Assembly: GCF_002933815.1 (NCBI RefSeq)
Contig: NZ_BEYR01000001.1
Coordinates: forward strand, 2,783,765-2,847,764
Direction of reading: 5' to 3'
Length of the DNA stretch: 64,000 nucleotides
DNA from: Sphingobacterium sp. HMA12
GTDB lineage: Bacteria > Bacteroidota > Bacteroidia > Sphingobacteriales > Sphingobacteriaceae
Made by a program: the position numbers and the translations under genes. How positions within the stretch are numbered: position 1 is the stretch's first letter; every line of letters begins with the position of its first letter. Positions 3,728 to 19,173 of this stretch are shown here, in pieces. The notes beneath the pieces are model-generated. The model was not told the origin of the DNA and did no database searches. It worked only from the letters and a program-made list of their open reading frames with translations.

Positions 3728-4778
3728 CCGCATTAAATTTATTCTGGACAATCCGCACAATAAATTCATTGCCAGATTCTTCAATATGTAATATGCCACA
3801 TTGCTCATCTTTGCACAGGCGTTGCCGCAAATTGCCAAGACCAAAATTGGAAGATTTCATCATCACGCGTTGCACAGGATCGAAAAGATTTCTACATTCA
3901 AATACAAACCCATAACGGCTCACGACCAAGCTAATAACGATCGCACCTTCAAATTGGAAAACGGCATACTTGATCGCATTTTCGAGGACCGTCACCAAAG
4001 ACATCGGAATAATATGATGACGACATTTTTCCCAGTCAGCATCCACCTGCAACTCCACTGTAGCATCGCCATATTTCCATTGCAGAATATCAGTCAAGTC
4101 AATAAAATAATCCCATTCAATCTTTAATGGGACAGCTTTCATCCCGGCAATATCCTGGTCCAGCACATAGCGTAGCACCTGGTTAAATCGGATTAACATA
4201 TCAGCGCTTTCCCTACCCTTTCCCATAAGCGATCTGCCGATGCCTGTAGATAAGATACTTTCAACAAAATGCGGGTTGATATCACGCAACGAAAGCTGAT
4301 AACGCAAATTGTCAATTTCATGTTTTGCATTGCTATTATCAGCTTCCAATAAAGATTGTTTGAATTTACGCTTTCTAAAAAAAACATTGCCTATGGTAAA
4401 CAATAGAATGGAACTAAAACTTGAGCCCACTCTTAGTTTAAACTGTACCGCATCAAACTCTGAATTTATCTTAAAAAGAAAAATGCCTACAAGGGGATAG
4501 AAATCATATATGACCCATTTCGAAAAAGGAATAAAGGTATACAAGACAAAAAGAAAAAGTAAGGTTCCGATACCACGTTTTGACCAAGATGAACTTATGA
4601 CCAACCTTAGATTAAGGTCCAAAAACTTAAAATAGAGCACAAATAACAACATAATACCGATGATCTGCATGACATTTAGCAGTCGTTGATAACGTAACAG
4701 ATTTCCGATGATCAAGATTAGTACAATGCTAAAAAATAATATAATTGGCGATCGATATCTCTTTAAAATCTTAATCAT
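3717..4778 (-). CDS. LytS-type sensor histidine kinase
   Basis: A 353-residue inner-membrane kinase. The N-terminal 135 residues contain about four helices and no large periplasmic domain. A short coiled segment (about 140-165) leads to the His_kinase (PF06580) domain, with the phospho-acceptor in INPHFVESIL (His170) and the ATP-binding N-box in VLENAIKYA (Asn267). The usual NPHFLFN motif is altered to NPHFVES. It is the partner of the LytTR regulator just downstream. The acyltransferase gene ends 69 bp upstream on the same strand, and the peptide-like gene lies beyond that, which suggests a signal-sensing locus. Confidence 0.9.
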   Translation of the reverse strand: MIKILKRYRSPIILFFSIVLILIIGNLLRYQRLLNVMQIIGIMLLFVLYFKFLDLNLRLVISSSWSKRGIGTLLFLFVLYTFIPFSKWVIYDFYPLVGIFLFKINSEFDAVQFKLRVGSSFSSILLFTIGNVFFRKRKFKQSLLEADNSNAKHEIDNLRYQLSLRDINPHFVESILSTGIGRSLMGKGRESADMLIRFNQVLRYVLDQDIAGMKAVPLKIEWDYFIDLTDILQWKYGDATVELQVDADWEKCRHHIIPMSLVTVLENAIKYAVFQFEGAIVISLVVSRYGFVFECRNLFDPVQRVMMKSSNFGLGNLRQRLCKDEQCGILHIEESGNEFIVRIVQNKFNADGN

Positions 4779-15452: not shown

Positions 15453-15716
15453 TTGAAGTCTTTAGCTTTTATGGAGAGTAAAGCAAAAATTAGTAAAATT
15501 GAACAATATATTATTGACTTTATTTATAAGCTAAGGAAAGAGAAAAACTTAAATCAAGCTGATATCGCCACAATTATTGGAGTAAGCCGAGTTTTTGTAA
15601 CCAATGTAGAAAATCCATCAAATAGAGCAAAATATAATATCGATCATATCAATGCCTTAGCTGACCATTTTGGAATGTCTCCAAGAGATTTTTTGCCAGA
15701 AAAAGCTATAATGTAA
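15453..15716 (+). CDS. XRE-family HTH protein
   Basis: An 87-residue protein, or 81 from the methionine at 15471. Residues about 20-80 form a Cro/C1-type HTH: LRKEKNLNQADIATIIGVSRVFVTNVENP followed (with the limit on quoted length, as two blocks) by HINALADHFGMSPRDF. It has no effector domain, so it acts as a small regulator or antitoxin-like protein. No toxin partner adjoins it on the same strand. It converges with the LPO_1073-like gene. Confidence 0.8.
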   Translation: MKSLAFMESKAKISKIEQYIIDFIYKLRKEKNLNQADIATIIGVSRVFVTNVENPSNRAKYNIDHINALADHFGMSPRDFLPEKAIM

Positions 15717-15784: not shown

Positions 15785-16654
15785 TTAATGAATCCACCTT
15801 TCTGGTGTTTCTTTATAATAATTTTGGATCTTATTGAAAAAAGTAATAGCGACTATCTTTCCAACTGGAGTTAAAGCGATGTTCCCCCCAGCCTTATTTT
15901 CATATATCTGCCAATACGAATAAAACGATGGGCAAACAACCCTTAAATGTTCTTTAAATGAATCTTTTGAGATATTAGAAAAAATCTCGTATTTGCGACG
16001 AATATTCTCCAAAGTATGATCTTCCATAATCACTTCGGAATGTTTTATCAGCCCGTATAATTCCAACACTTGTACATCTGTATTGTTAATTTCCTTCACT
16101 AAATCCAAACCTCCTAAAATAAGTCTCTTTCCAACGTCAAGAGATTCAGCTAAAGTATCCCGTACAAAATGAAAATGCTTTATCCCGAATAATAATGTTA
16201 AAAATTGTATTTGTCTAGTGTTTAAATACTGTACAGCATTTAGACTTTCAGAGGCCATCATAGAAACAACTTCGGTAGTAGCAACTTCCAATCTCTTAGT
16301 CAAAAGTTCCGCTAATAAATCTAGATTTCCCTTTTCACCTTTTCGAGCTGCTCCTCTGATTGCATCATTGAGATCTGCTTGAATATCCGGTTCGCTAAGT
16401 TTCTCAACATCTATTTTATCAGCTTTTTCCCTCAATTTAGTTTCGAATTGCGTATAAAACAGTTGAACATGCTCTTCCGCTTGTTTCAAGGCTTTTTCCT
16501 GCAATTTTGGAAAATTTTTATCAAACAACAATTCAACGATTTCCTTAACATCCTTAAATTCTAGCCCATATGTATTAATTACCACATCCTTGCCTGCTTG
16601 AACATTAGTTGAATTATCACCAGCATTCTGATCTAATTTATTAGATGACCCCAT
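15785..16654 (-). CDS. LPO_1073/Vpar_1526-like protein
   Basis: A 289-residue protein from MGSSNKLDQ; the longer frame to 16687 adds 11 residues. The N-terminus holds GDNSTNVQAGKDVVIN (residues about 12-27). The rest is helical and soluble, with a charged coiled-coil-like region (about 40-110). It resembles the sporadically distributed LPO_1073/Vpar_1526 proteins, whose function I do not know. The QAGKD motif closely matches the C-terminal tail of the small membrane protein encoded 39 bp upstream, suggesting the two interact by like-with-like pairing of the motif. The setting among an ImmA-type regulator and unknown genes is that of an accessory or defence module. Confidence 0.6.
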   Translation of the reverse strand: MGSSNKLDQNAGDNSTNVQAGKDVVINTYGLEFKDVKEIVELLFDKNFPKLQEKALKQAEEHVQLFYTQFETKLREKADKIDVEKLSEPDIQADLNDAIRGAARKGEKGNLDLLAELLTKRLEVATTEVVSMMASESLNAVQYLNTRQIQFLTLLFGIKHFHFVRDTLAESLDVGKRLILGGLDLVKEINNTDVQVLELYGLIKHSEVIMEDHTLENIRRKYEIFSNISKDSFKEHLRVVCPSFYSYWQIYENKAGGNIALTPVGKIVAITFFNKIQNYYKETPERWIH

Positions 16655-16693
16655 AATATATTTAATTACTATTTCAAAAATCTTCAAAACATA

Positions 16694-16879
16694 TTATTTA
16701 CTATTTATCTTTATATCTCTCCCCGCTTGGTACCCTTTAGAATTATTACCTAATTTTTGCTTTTGGCTCGCCCCATTATTCTTATTCTTGATAAAGATCC
16801 CGATAATCGCAACTAGAATAATACCTATACTTCCAGAAAGCATTTGGTGCTCTTTAACAAATTTTAAAACCTCTTCCAT
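16694..16879 (-). CDS. Small membrane protein with C-terminal QAGRD motif
   Basis: A 61-residue protein from MEEVLKFVKE; an upstream ATG at 16897 is possible. It has one membrane helix (about 15-30), a basic linker, then the tail LGNNSKGYQAGRDIKIN (about 43-59). The tail matches the start of the next protein at K-L-x(3-5)-N-S-x(4)-QAG-[RK]-D-[IV]-x-I-N. That pattern recalls short self-assembling adhesion motifs of the RHIM/amyloid-signalling kind; this is a comparison, not a recognised family. It would place the motif on the cytoplasmic face as a membrane anchor. Confidence 0.6.
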   Translation of the reverse strand: MEEVLKFVKEHQMLSGSIGIILVAIIGIFIKNKNNGASQKQKLGNNSKGYQAGRDIKINSK

Positions 16880-16942
16880 AATATAACTTAATATCAATCA
16901 CTATTTAATTTTTATGCCCCAATACTTAAAATTGCTTGTTTA

Positions 16943-17497
16943 TTACAAGTTATCTCCCAATGTTAACATTGCTTTTGCCACGCTCGCAGTAGTATCATCA
17001 TAATCTTCGTGTTGATATTCATGTCTTTCGTTGAGCATATAGAAATCACGATAAAGTTCAAAAGGATTTTGCGAGCTACCTACCCATTTTATAATGATAT
17101 CCAAGATCTCATTCATAACTGGTTGAAAAGTCATACGTCCATCAGACCCGCGAACTCCTGCTCCATCTGACTTACGCTTGCCGAGATTTAAAAAGATATT
17201 TTTCTCATCATAAATAATATCACGCATCTCCTTAGCTTCATCTCCTTTTGGTAAATGATCCATTAATAGCTTCCGAATTCCTTTGTAGTAAATGTTATAC
17301 TTTTCTTCGGGATTCTCCAGTTGTTTACCAACTAACTCACGTAGTTCGTCGATTTCCCTCAAGCTTCCAGATTCACCATCGATAGTTAATTGCTTGCCTT
17401 TTTTCTCATGTGCACGCCGCAATAATTCCAGACGCTCTAAATCTGCTTGACCGACAGCTTCGTCCTGTTGTGCTTTCTTTTTATTATTATTCTCCAT
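16943..17497 (-). CDS. Hypothetical helical protein of the ImmA-type operon
   Basis: A 184-residue, highly charged, probably all-helical protein without signal peptide or recognised domain. The N-terminus is Lys/Gln-rich and coiled-coil-like. It lies 11 bp downstream of the HTH/ImmA-type gene and 63 bp upstream of the small membrane protein, all on the minus strand, so one operon is likely. No catalytic motif is evident. Confidence 0.6.
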   Translation of the reverse strand: MENNNKKKAQQDEAVGQADLERLELLRRAHEKKGKQLTIDGESGSLREIDELRELVGKQLENPEEKYNIYYKGIRKLLMDHLPKGDEAKEMRDIIYDEKNIFLNLGKRKSDGAGVRGSDGRMTFQPVMNEILDIIIKWVGSSQNPFELYRDFYMLNERHEYQHEDYDDTTASVAKAMLTLGDNL

Positions 17498-17508
17498 AAA
17501 ATAGTTTA

Positions 17509-18702
17509 TTAATTGATTTCAAATACAGCTTTTATTTTTTCACTCGCAACCCGTACACTCTCCTCATTCCATGCAATTGGATTCAGCCGAGCAACTGCAA
17601 TTTTATAATCGGGATAGAACTCCTTGAAGGCTCCATAATAATTCTTACCATAAAGGTCCTTTTGGTACCAAGCATAGAACGAATAAACTAACGATGGGTG
17701 AATCTCCTTGTCCTTAGCAAACCGCTCGACAACATATGCATTTTTGATATAGGTCTTGATATAATCAAAATCTGCTTTTGGCATAAAGTATTCACGCGCA
17801 AAAGTATTCGCTTTCTCCTCTATCAAAAATAGATCTTCATCATCCGACAAATGATAACGATTGGTACTAATTGCATCATAATCAAACAAAACATGGTGTA
17901 ACTCATGAAGTAATGTAAACCAGATTGTAGGATATTTTCTTGGATTGTCTGTCAATACAATGCATGGCTTACCATTGATAATAAAAGTCGCCCCTTTAAC
18001 CTGCGTTGTGGTCAAATACTCCTGAAATATAACTGTAACCCCAATATTGTATAGGGCTCTACATACCGTATAAAGACCGTTTTTAACATCTTGCGAATAT
18101 GGCTTCATATTAACGATAACGTCCTTCAATCGCTCACGTTCGTACTCATTCGAATTGTCAATCAGCTTGAATGTTTGATAAGCTGAACGTACCCAAAAAT
18201 CTTTCATCTTATCCGAGAACTTACGTTTGACTCTGCTATACAACGGTGTAACAAGTTCCTCTTCAAACGACCGAATGGAATCATAACCAAAGTAATGTAA
18301 AACCCGCTCCACAAGTAAATCTACATCATCAACATTCTCAAAAAAACCTTCCTTTGTAAGTGCTTTTACATCAAAGTTTTTCATTAAGAATTTCACCTTG
18401 CGTGCACGATCTATCGAAGCTATATTTTCAACATTCTGGTTTCTAAGCACCATTTGGATAAAGTCATCTACATCAACATCTAAAAACTCGGCGATTTTAA
18501 CGACATGAATAAGATTCGGCTGCTTGGCTGTACCATTAATGATATCTTCAAACACATCTTTATCTATACTCAATAACTTAAGCGCTTTGGTCTTTGTGAT
18601 CCCATATTCTTCTATCTTCTCATCAAAACGTGCTTTCAAATCGAAGGACACCTCGTCATTGAATATTTCCTGAAGAAGCTTATCTACATCTATATTTTTC
18701 AT
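17509..18702 (-). CDS. HTH plus ImmA/IrrE-type metallopeptidase regulator
   Basis: A 397-residue protein. An XRE-like helix-turn-helix lies at about 30-90 (TKTKALKLLSIDKDVFEDI, then HVVKIAEFLDVDVDDF). The C-terminal half holds an ImmA/IrrE domain with zinc motif HELHH (266-270) and a downstream Glu in EEKANTFA (about 296). ImmA-type proteases cleave phage or ICE repressors, and HTH-fused forms are sensors controlling mobile elements or toxin-antitoxin operons. Its promoter is flanked by matching half-sites, so it probably represses itself and the three downstream genes. Confidence 0.85.
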   Translation of the reverse strand: MKNIDVDKLLQEIFNDEVSFDLKARFDEKIEEYGITKTKALKLLSIDKDVFEDIINGTAKQPNLIHVVKIAEFLDVDVDDFIQMVLRNQNVENIASIDRARKVKFLMKNFDVKALTKEGFFENVDDVDLLVERVLHYFGYDSIRSFEEELVTPLYSRVKRKFSDKMKDFWVRSAYQTFKLIDNSNEYERERLKDVIVNMKPYSQDVKNGLYTVCRALYNIGVTVIFQEYLTTTQVKGATFIINGKPCIVLTDNPRKYPTIWFTLLHELHHVLFDYDAISTNRYHLSDDEDLFLIEEKANTFAREYFMPKADFDYIKTYIKNAYVVERFAKDKEIHPSLVYSFYAWYQKDLYGKNYYGAFKEFYPDYKIAVARLNPIAWNEESVRVASEKIKAVFEIN

Positions 18703-18861: not shown

Positions 18862-19173
18862 TTATAGTGATTCATTATCTAAAAATTGTTTTACCCTAAT
18901 TAATACGCTAACATGTGTTGTCATTCCTGACTTAATAGCATTTAGCATCATACTTGAATTTTCTGAGAGTCTTTCCAGTTTCAAAAGCATTTTAATTTTA
19001 TCTTTTTCGTATTGGGCTAAATCCTCTAACCTATTTTTCGCATTTGTTTTACGATCTAAATGGGTAATAATTAGTGTAATAAAAATAGGGATTGCAATAG
19101 CCAAAGATGGTATGATAAAATCTTTCCAATTTTCTCTTGAAAGAAAAAAATCTATAATTAATTCTATGTTCAT
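18862..19173 (-). CDS. Small membrane protein with coiled-coil tail
   Basis: A 103-residue protein with one hydrophobic helix (about 20-40) and a charged helical C-terminus (LEDLAQYEKDKIKMLLKLERL). It is not recognised. A competing frame on the other strand (18821-19180) exists, but the minus frame has the better protein character and starts well. It lies between a strong terminator and the ImmA-type promoter as a single gene. Confidence 0.45.
   Translation of the reverse strand: MNIELIIDFFLSRENWKDFIIPSLAIAIPIFITLIITHLDRKTNAKNRLEDLAQYEKDKIKMLLKLERLSENSSMMLNAIKSGMTTHVSVLIRVKQFLDNESL

Follow-up and report, generated by a model that had tools for sequence, protein, structure and literature searches.

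A small membrane protein and an LPO_1073/Vpar_1526 family protein paired through a shared terminal motif: a candidate mobile phage-defence module without an NLR

Within the window, that is, the whole stretch of 64,000 nucleotides that was analysed, two adjacent genes encode a 61-aa membrane protein and a 289-aa soluble protein of the LPO_1073/Vpar_1526 family, which carry the same short motif at the C-terminus of the former and the N-terminus of the latter. By computation, the two genes were found strictly paired in distant bacteria, with motifs concordant within pairs and reused with other soluble partners, a layout of membrane and cytosolic parts assigned by the charge rule, and a defence context. 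The pair is read here, at a probability of roughly 0.55, as a mobile two-gene phage-defence (abortive-infection) module that uses a RHIM/BASS-like homotypic motif without an NLR, with the LPO_1073 protein as sensor and the membrane protein as executioner. Coupling of the pair by the motif and the defence context are well supported, while the sensor and effector roles were assigned by analogy, because no enzymatic domain is known in the LPO_1073 family.

The locus and its shared motif

Four co-directional genes occupy positions 15785-18702 of the minus strand in the order ImmA gene, 184-aa gene, 61-aa gene and 289-aa gene, separated by gaps of 11, 63 and 39 nt. The features are as follows.

17509..18702, minus strand: HTH + ImmA/IrrE-type metallopeptidase gene, first of the control unit (Peptidase_M78 5.5e-8, HELHH)
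16943..17497, minus strand: gene of a 184-aa protein, family unknown, second of the control unit
16694..16879, minus strand: 61-aa single-pass membrane protein (ORF with ATG start; a TTG start at 16897 is possible)
16703..16759, minus strand: C-terminal shared motif QKLGNNSKGYQAGRDIKIN of the membrane protein (profile match E 5e-8, window rows left out)
15785..16654, minus strand: LPO_1073/Vpar_1526 family protein, 289 aa from ATG (NF045477; a TTG start at 16687 is possible)
16574..16630, minus strand: N-terminal shared motif QNAGDNSTNVQAGKDVVIN of the soluble protein, in a disordered region (profile match E 2.6e-4, window rows left out)

The motif spans about 19 residues, Q-x3-G-x-N-S-x2-[IV]-Q-A-G-x-[DN]-x2-I, and is found in the tail of the membrane protein (16694-16879, minus strand; GNNSKGYQAGRDIKIN) and in the head of the soluble protein read from its ATG (15785-16654, minus strand; GDNSTNVQAGKDVVIN). 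A QAG[RK]D-type pattern common to these two ends had been noticed in the first-pass annotation, and its presence there was borne out by a best 18-residue BLOSUM62 score of 49 between tail and head, which was reached by 0 of 5000 shuffled tails (maximum 40). Across the 6.5-Mb genome, a motif profile built without the window rows singled out these two genes (E 5e-8 and 2.6e-4), the next match lying at 0.47, and a profile including those rows gave no significant match in the 93 other genus genomes (best 0.095). The annotation had held that spread of the motif over unrelated positions would speak against its proposal, and no such spread was seen. These searches, together with one of 369 gammaproteobacterial genomes, ruled out a widespread low-complexity pattern. 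Recent DNA duplication as the origin of the likeness was ruled out as well: at the 9 identical residues of tail and head the codons differ at 4 positions, and the likeness has therefore been kept at the protein level.

No match of the 61-aa protein to Pfam, NCBIfam or PADLOC models was obtained; through its tail it matches phrog_27656, an unnamed phage family. Its AF2 model, of low overall confidence, shows a helix at residues 2-33 followed by an unstructured tail, and positive-inside charges follow the TM segment. This architecture of TM plus tail is kept in relatives, with 1-2 TM helices, and by the positive-inside rule the tails are cytosolic in 25 of 27 scored proteins (the other 2 are not positive). 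Within the membrane protein, conservation is highest in the motif (41% vs 22% identity). By analogy, the protein is predicted to be an effector or anchor with a cytosolic C-terminal tail.

The 289-aa protein belongs to NF045477 (2e-50, 171.8 bits vs a cut-off of 45, model 1-248 of 257), a model that starts downstream of the motif. Its AF2 model has an all-helical body with pLDDT of about 80-95 over most of the chain, and residues 1-30, the motif region, are disordered (pLDDT 43-49). A Pfam search of the protein found no NTPase and Foldseek against the PDB gave no match at E <= 0.001, while the best BFVD match had an E of 0.038. VIA-align matches (Z up to 6.8), to designed helical proteins and, against the C-terminal half, to some MarR-like winged helices, reached values that common helical arrangements also give, and were set aside. 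A literature search on LPO_1073/Vpar_1526 found no functional paper, the single text mention being a list of a Veillonella fraction. The role of sensor is predicted for this protein from comparison with known systems.

Pairing and motif concordance across bacteria

Loci of LPO_1073 were found through the protein body and not through the motif. Viral contigs and 84,980 genomes were scanned with body-derived patterns from three relatives, and a search with NF045477 covered about 1,100 genomes. Of the 29 LPO_1073 proteins obtained, all less than 80% alike, one was truncated at the end of its contig and another was the second member of a tandem duplicate; with these two set aside, 27 testable loci were left. 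A small TM protein with the motif at its end is encoded directly upstream in 27/27 of these non-redundant loci, at a distance of -73 to +15 nt to the LPO_1073 gene by longest ORF, and measures 61-98 aa, apart from one that would reach 139 aa when read as its longest ORF. Loss of the pair as neighbours had been named beforehand as the other outcome that would undo the proposal; the neighbourhood held at every testable locus. At two Burkholderiaceae loci (L028 1478-3370 and L041 4963-6855), tandem LPO_1073 duplicates stand behind one membrane gene, and both copies have the N-terminal motif.

Hosts of the pair include Bacteroidota (with Chlorobiaceae), Planctomycetes (Scalindua, Brocadiaceae) and alpha-, beta- and gammaproteobacteria. 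It is carried by P2-like prophages, by other prophages at terminase or lysis ends and by plasmids, and it occurs in regions adjoining integrase or conjugation-like genes, the gene identities being assigned partly by eye. LPO_1073 is rare, being present in 1/94 genus genomes, 2/395 phylum genomes and about 0.5-1% of two gammaproteobacterial samples. Since only the window's species has it among the 94 genus genomes, the pair was probably acquired by this species. Single-protein searches with the window proteins found no match in viral contigs or phages, nor did the window membrane protein match in plasmids; an Aeromonas match (E 3) was a chance match inside another gene. The family is divergent as well as rare.

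Over 26 pairs, the best 18-residue motif score was 47.7 within pairs vs 32.7 across pairs (permutation p < 5e-5). The tail resembles its own partner's head (47.7), although that head belongs to a non-homologous protein, more closely than the tails of distant systems, defined by soluble proteins less than 40% identical (36.0; Wilcoxon 3e-8); shared descent of the adjacent genes inflates the within-pair similarity, an effect that the distant-tail comparison lessens and does not remove. Concordance within pairs is not clean proof of co-evolution, yet closeness above that of homologous tails argues for it. Some variants are found in a single pair only, as ININSGRDT / ENINSGRDT (L021), GISGGKNSTN / GISSGDNSNT (L012) and QKAKNNAKQTQIG / QKAGKDSQQIQIG (L013), and the motif is conserved above the LPO body (43% vs 31% identity).

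Heads and tails are similar yet non-identical motif classes. The pattern GxQxGx[ND] was found in 18/26 tails (shuffle expectation 0.1) and matches 0/31 heads exactly, many heads being AxQxGx[ND] or further variants, with A before IQ in heads and G in tails. Because of this systematic difference, the contact between head and tail could be asymmetric and non-amyloid. This leads to the main rival reading, a docking tag, in which the motif would pair specifically in a non-amyloid way (e.g. by strand pairing) and the membrane protein would anchor an LPO_1073 effector at the inner membrane, as for superinfection exclusion. The two faces of a single interface would be expected to differ consistently, as heads and tails do; many of the pairs are morons carried by prophages; and Vpar_1526, after which the family is named, has been detected in Veillonella in a fraction enriched for outer membrane (PMC5491611). 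The high similarity of head to tail is, however, unneeded for a heterotypic interface. The motif's use by other soluble partners and its replacement by fused effectors, described below, fit a homotypic signalling tag better, so that docking was judged possible and rather unlikely.

Other soluble partners and the defence setting

A search of 369 gammaproteobacterial genomes with the motif profile gave four matches at E <= 0.01, three of them in LPO_1073 pairs and one elsewhere. This fourth match, at the G844 locus, is a TM protein of 76 aa; its gene shares 17 nt with that of a 1268-aa protein beginning MWKKSKQKISAGDDSTNIVAGRDFNLF. In the large protein, HTH_upst_double_PIN and PIN-TPR-GreABC domains were recognised, and the next gene is Permuted_GreAB-C (PF20698, PF24407, PF24388); the locus, unlike the window, is classed as a TPR-GreAB-C-PIN conflict system. 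The N-terminus of such proteins was described as a slot for many effectors or couplers in a predicted conflict system (PMC8195603). Homologues of the TPR/PIN protein hold other segments in the motif's slot, namely an alpha/beta-hydrolase-like stretch in Agrobacterium (own reading of the sequence) and a fused two-TM segment in Methylophaga. On the Agrobacterium plasmid pAtN33_94 (L116, 2101-6690), a type I restriction gene lies close to the gene of a TPR-HTH-PIN protein whose N-terminal domain was likewise read by eye as alpha/beta-hydrolase-like.

A second partner was found on the Azospirillum plasmid AbAZ39_p2 (L118), where an unannotated 56-aa membrane ORF ending GSNSTNIQSGNDTKINK (4492-4662) lies 9 nt before the gene of a 230-aa protein beginning MFNKENVNQNMFSGDNCVLVQAGRDVNLI; a Pfam search of the latter gave no match. 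Partner genes such as this 56-aa ORF can escape annotation. Motif pairs of the TPR/PIN and the 230-aa systems both score above all 300 shuffles, and the membrane segments of the proteins linked to them resemble the N-terminus of the PADLOC candidate PDC-M43A.

Because the same layout precedes the unrelated TPR/PIN and 230-aa proteins, the motif behaves like an interchangeable coupling piece that joins small membrane proteins to soluble proteins of different kinds. Where the motif is absent, the membrane segment or an enzyme may be fused directly. On the Vibrio plasmid pVPTW011 (L119, 4489-5391), a membrane segment of the WLFSGVGV type seen in the motif-tailed proteins is fused directly to an HTH protein without the motif, which suggests that the motif stands in for a covalent link; a scan of viral contigs for the WLFSGVGV segment gave no match.

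Upstream of the pair in the window lies a control unit that is shared more widely. Its HTH-ImmA gene matches PADLOC PD-Lambda-2_B (3.6e-22) and has HELHH at residue 266, and its 184-aa protein had no family match above cut-off. The 184-aa gene is present in 7/94 genus genomes and adjoins the ImmA gene in the five closest. Five further genus species (L082-L086) have the HTH-ImmA and 184-aa unit without LPO_1073 (69-81% identity for the 184-aa protein), followed by other cargo such as AbiTii, a DUF2806 protein, a 306-aa TM protein after a small ORF, a 419-aa protein and others. The pair thus takes a cargo position after a control unit that can be used again with other genes, and HTH-ImmA with the 184-aa protein is a possible general regulator of swappable defence genes. 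An ImmA-type regulator at the head of the operon, as first annotated, is real (Peptidase_M78 5.5e-8; HELHH), but it belongs to a separate swappable unit and is absent beside the pair in other organisms. Two small genes flank this region: an HTH gene, HipB/RstR-like, at 15453-15716 on the plus strand, convergent with the operon's end, and a 103-aa membrane ORF at 18862-19173 on the minus strand, upstream of the ImmA gene. The TM segment of this ORF resembles the 306-aa TM cargo protein of L082 (48% over 31 aa), and by this likeness the ORF is perhaps a leftover of earlier cargo.

Small genes that overlap or adjoin, next to a PD-Lambda-2B-like HTH-peptidase from a TA-like defence system (PMC9519451), bring to mind a toxin-antitoxin-like pair, in which one protein would be toxic, its co-translated neighbour would neutralise it through the shared motif, and upset by a phage would free the toxin. 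No known family of toxins or antitoxins was matched by either protein, a motif matched in both partners is atypical of TA pairs, and the PD-Lambda-2B-like gene is unlinked to the pair elsewhere; this reading was considered improbable.

A defence context was also observed in E. coli, where the pair occurs in 6/5,426 genomes (one copy at NZ_CP148400.1 12537-13649). It is located in P2-like prophages, flanked by their replication and portal genes and adjoining Hp1-Hp2-Hp3. This interval of P2-like prophages is a defence hotspot (PMC9122126). Hp1-Hp2-Hp3 is a PADLOC-listed three-gene system and, by an inferred correspondence, probably the three-gene system reported protective against P1 in the same work. 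Since the pair is not confined to P2 hotspots and resides in several other kinds of element, a role outside defence was weighed, in which it would serve its mobile element in housekeeping or stress, for example in plasmid or prophage upkeep or in envelope stress. The hotspot site beside Hp1-3, the TPR-GreAB-C-PIN partner and AbiTii, which is found at the corresponding cargo position in a sister species, make it highly improbable.

Proposed mechanism and comparison with known systems

Under the preferred reading of an abortive-infection module, infection would cause the LPO_1073 sensor to change state or multimerise, gathering its N-terminal motifs. The gathered heads would then template beta-stacking with the membrane-protein tails into a homotypic assembly of the RHIM/BASS-like kind, and the membrane protein, once clustered, would disturb the inner membrane so that the infected cell is stopped. 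This is the most economical model. The amyloid nature of the assembly, the direction of signalling, the membrane damage or killing and the trigger are proposed here by analogy with described systems. Expression of the pair in the window is probably regulated by the HTH-ImmA and 184-aa control unit.

The field of amyloid signalling asks whether signalling amyloids occur in NLR-independent bacterial pathways (PMC7889193). The pair is a compact candidate for such a pathway, made up of two small genes and a single motif, and natural variants of it exist in P2-like prophages of E. coli. The chances are about even that it represents an NLR-free bacterial RHIM-like signalling family with a minimal 1-2 TM executioner and sensors that can be exchanged (LPO_1073, TPR-PIN and others); prophages and plasmids would have distributed it among unicellular bacteria, where it would serve as phage defence. 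If so, this would be the simplest form of RHIM-like death signalling, on mobile elements and in unicellular bacteria, and a function could be given to LPO_1073/Vpar_1526 and to its partner genes, which often lack annotation.

The layout of bacterial amyloid signalling places the motif C-terminally in a membrane effector and N-terminally in a sensor (PMC7889193). The pair, characterised here by computation, resembles BASS systems (BASS3 and others; PMC7889193, PMC8086366, PMC12261475) in its adjacent or overlapping genes and in a short, Q/G/N-rich, beta-prone motif common to the membrane-protein C-terminus and the soluble-sensor N-terminus and concordant within gene pairs. It differs in having no NLR (NB-ARC/NACHT plus repeats), the soluble partner being a 289-aa protein with a helical body; its membrane proteins have 1-2 TM helices and a tail without a recognisable Bell helical bundle; and it resides on mobile elements of unicellular bacteria, whereas BASS was described in multicellular actinobacteria and cyanobacteria. 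Because NLR and Bell domain are absent, the LPO_1073 pair is not a BASS system as published. The initial proposal is partly supported and is extended here: a conserved defence or signalling pair with matched terminal motifs is well supported by the strict pairing, within-pair concordance, other partners and hotspot, and the amyloid nature of the motif and protection against phage are putative.

The RHIM and fungal PP motif core is NxGxQxGxN (PMC9815663). Tails come near the PP core, with GxQxGx[ND] in 18/26, but none of the 31 heads has this pattern and no Pfam match to a RHIM family was obtained. Within LPO_1073/Vpar_1526 (NF045477) the soluble protein is a clear member, and the family description contains neither the motif nor the partner gene. 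TPR-GreAB-C-PIN systems and effector-associated domains (PMC8195603) likewise use interchangeable N-terminal modules joined by homotypic contacts, and a gammaproteobacterial member has the motif at its N-terminus and a motif-tailed membrane gene upstream; the couplers described in the literature, EAD10 for example, are small domains of mostly helical structure, in contrast to the motif of about 19 residues. PD-Lambda-2 is TA-like and comprises a HigB-like A, an HTH-peptidase B and a P4-antitoxin-like C (PMC9519451). The first gene of the window operon encodes an HTH-peptidase resembling PD-Lambda-2B (3.6e-22), but no match to the HigB-like A or to C was found among the operon proteins, and the B-like gene belongs to the control unit and not to the pair.
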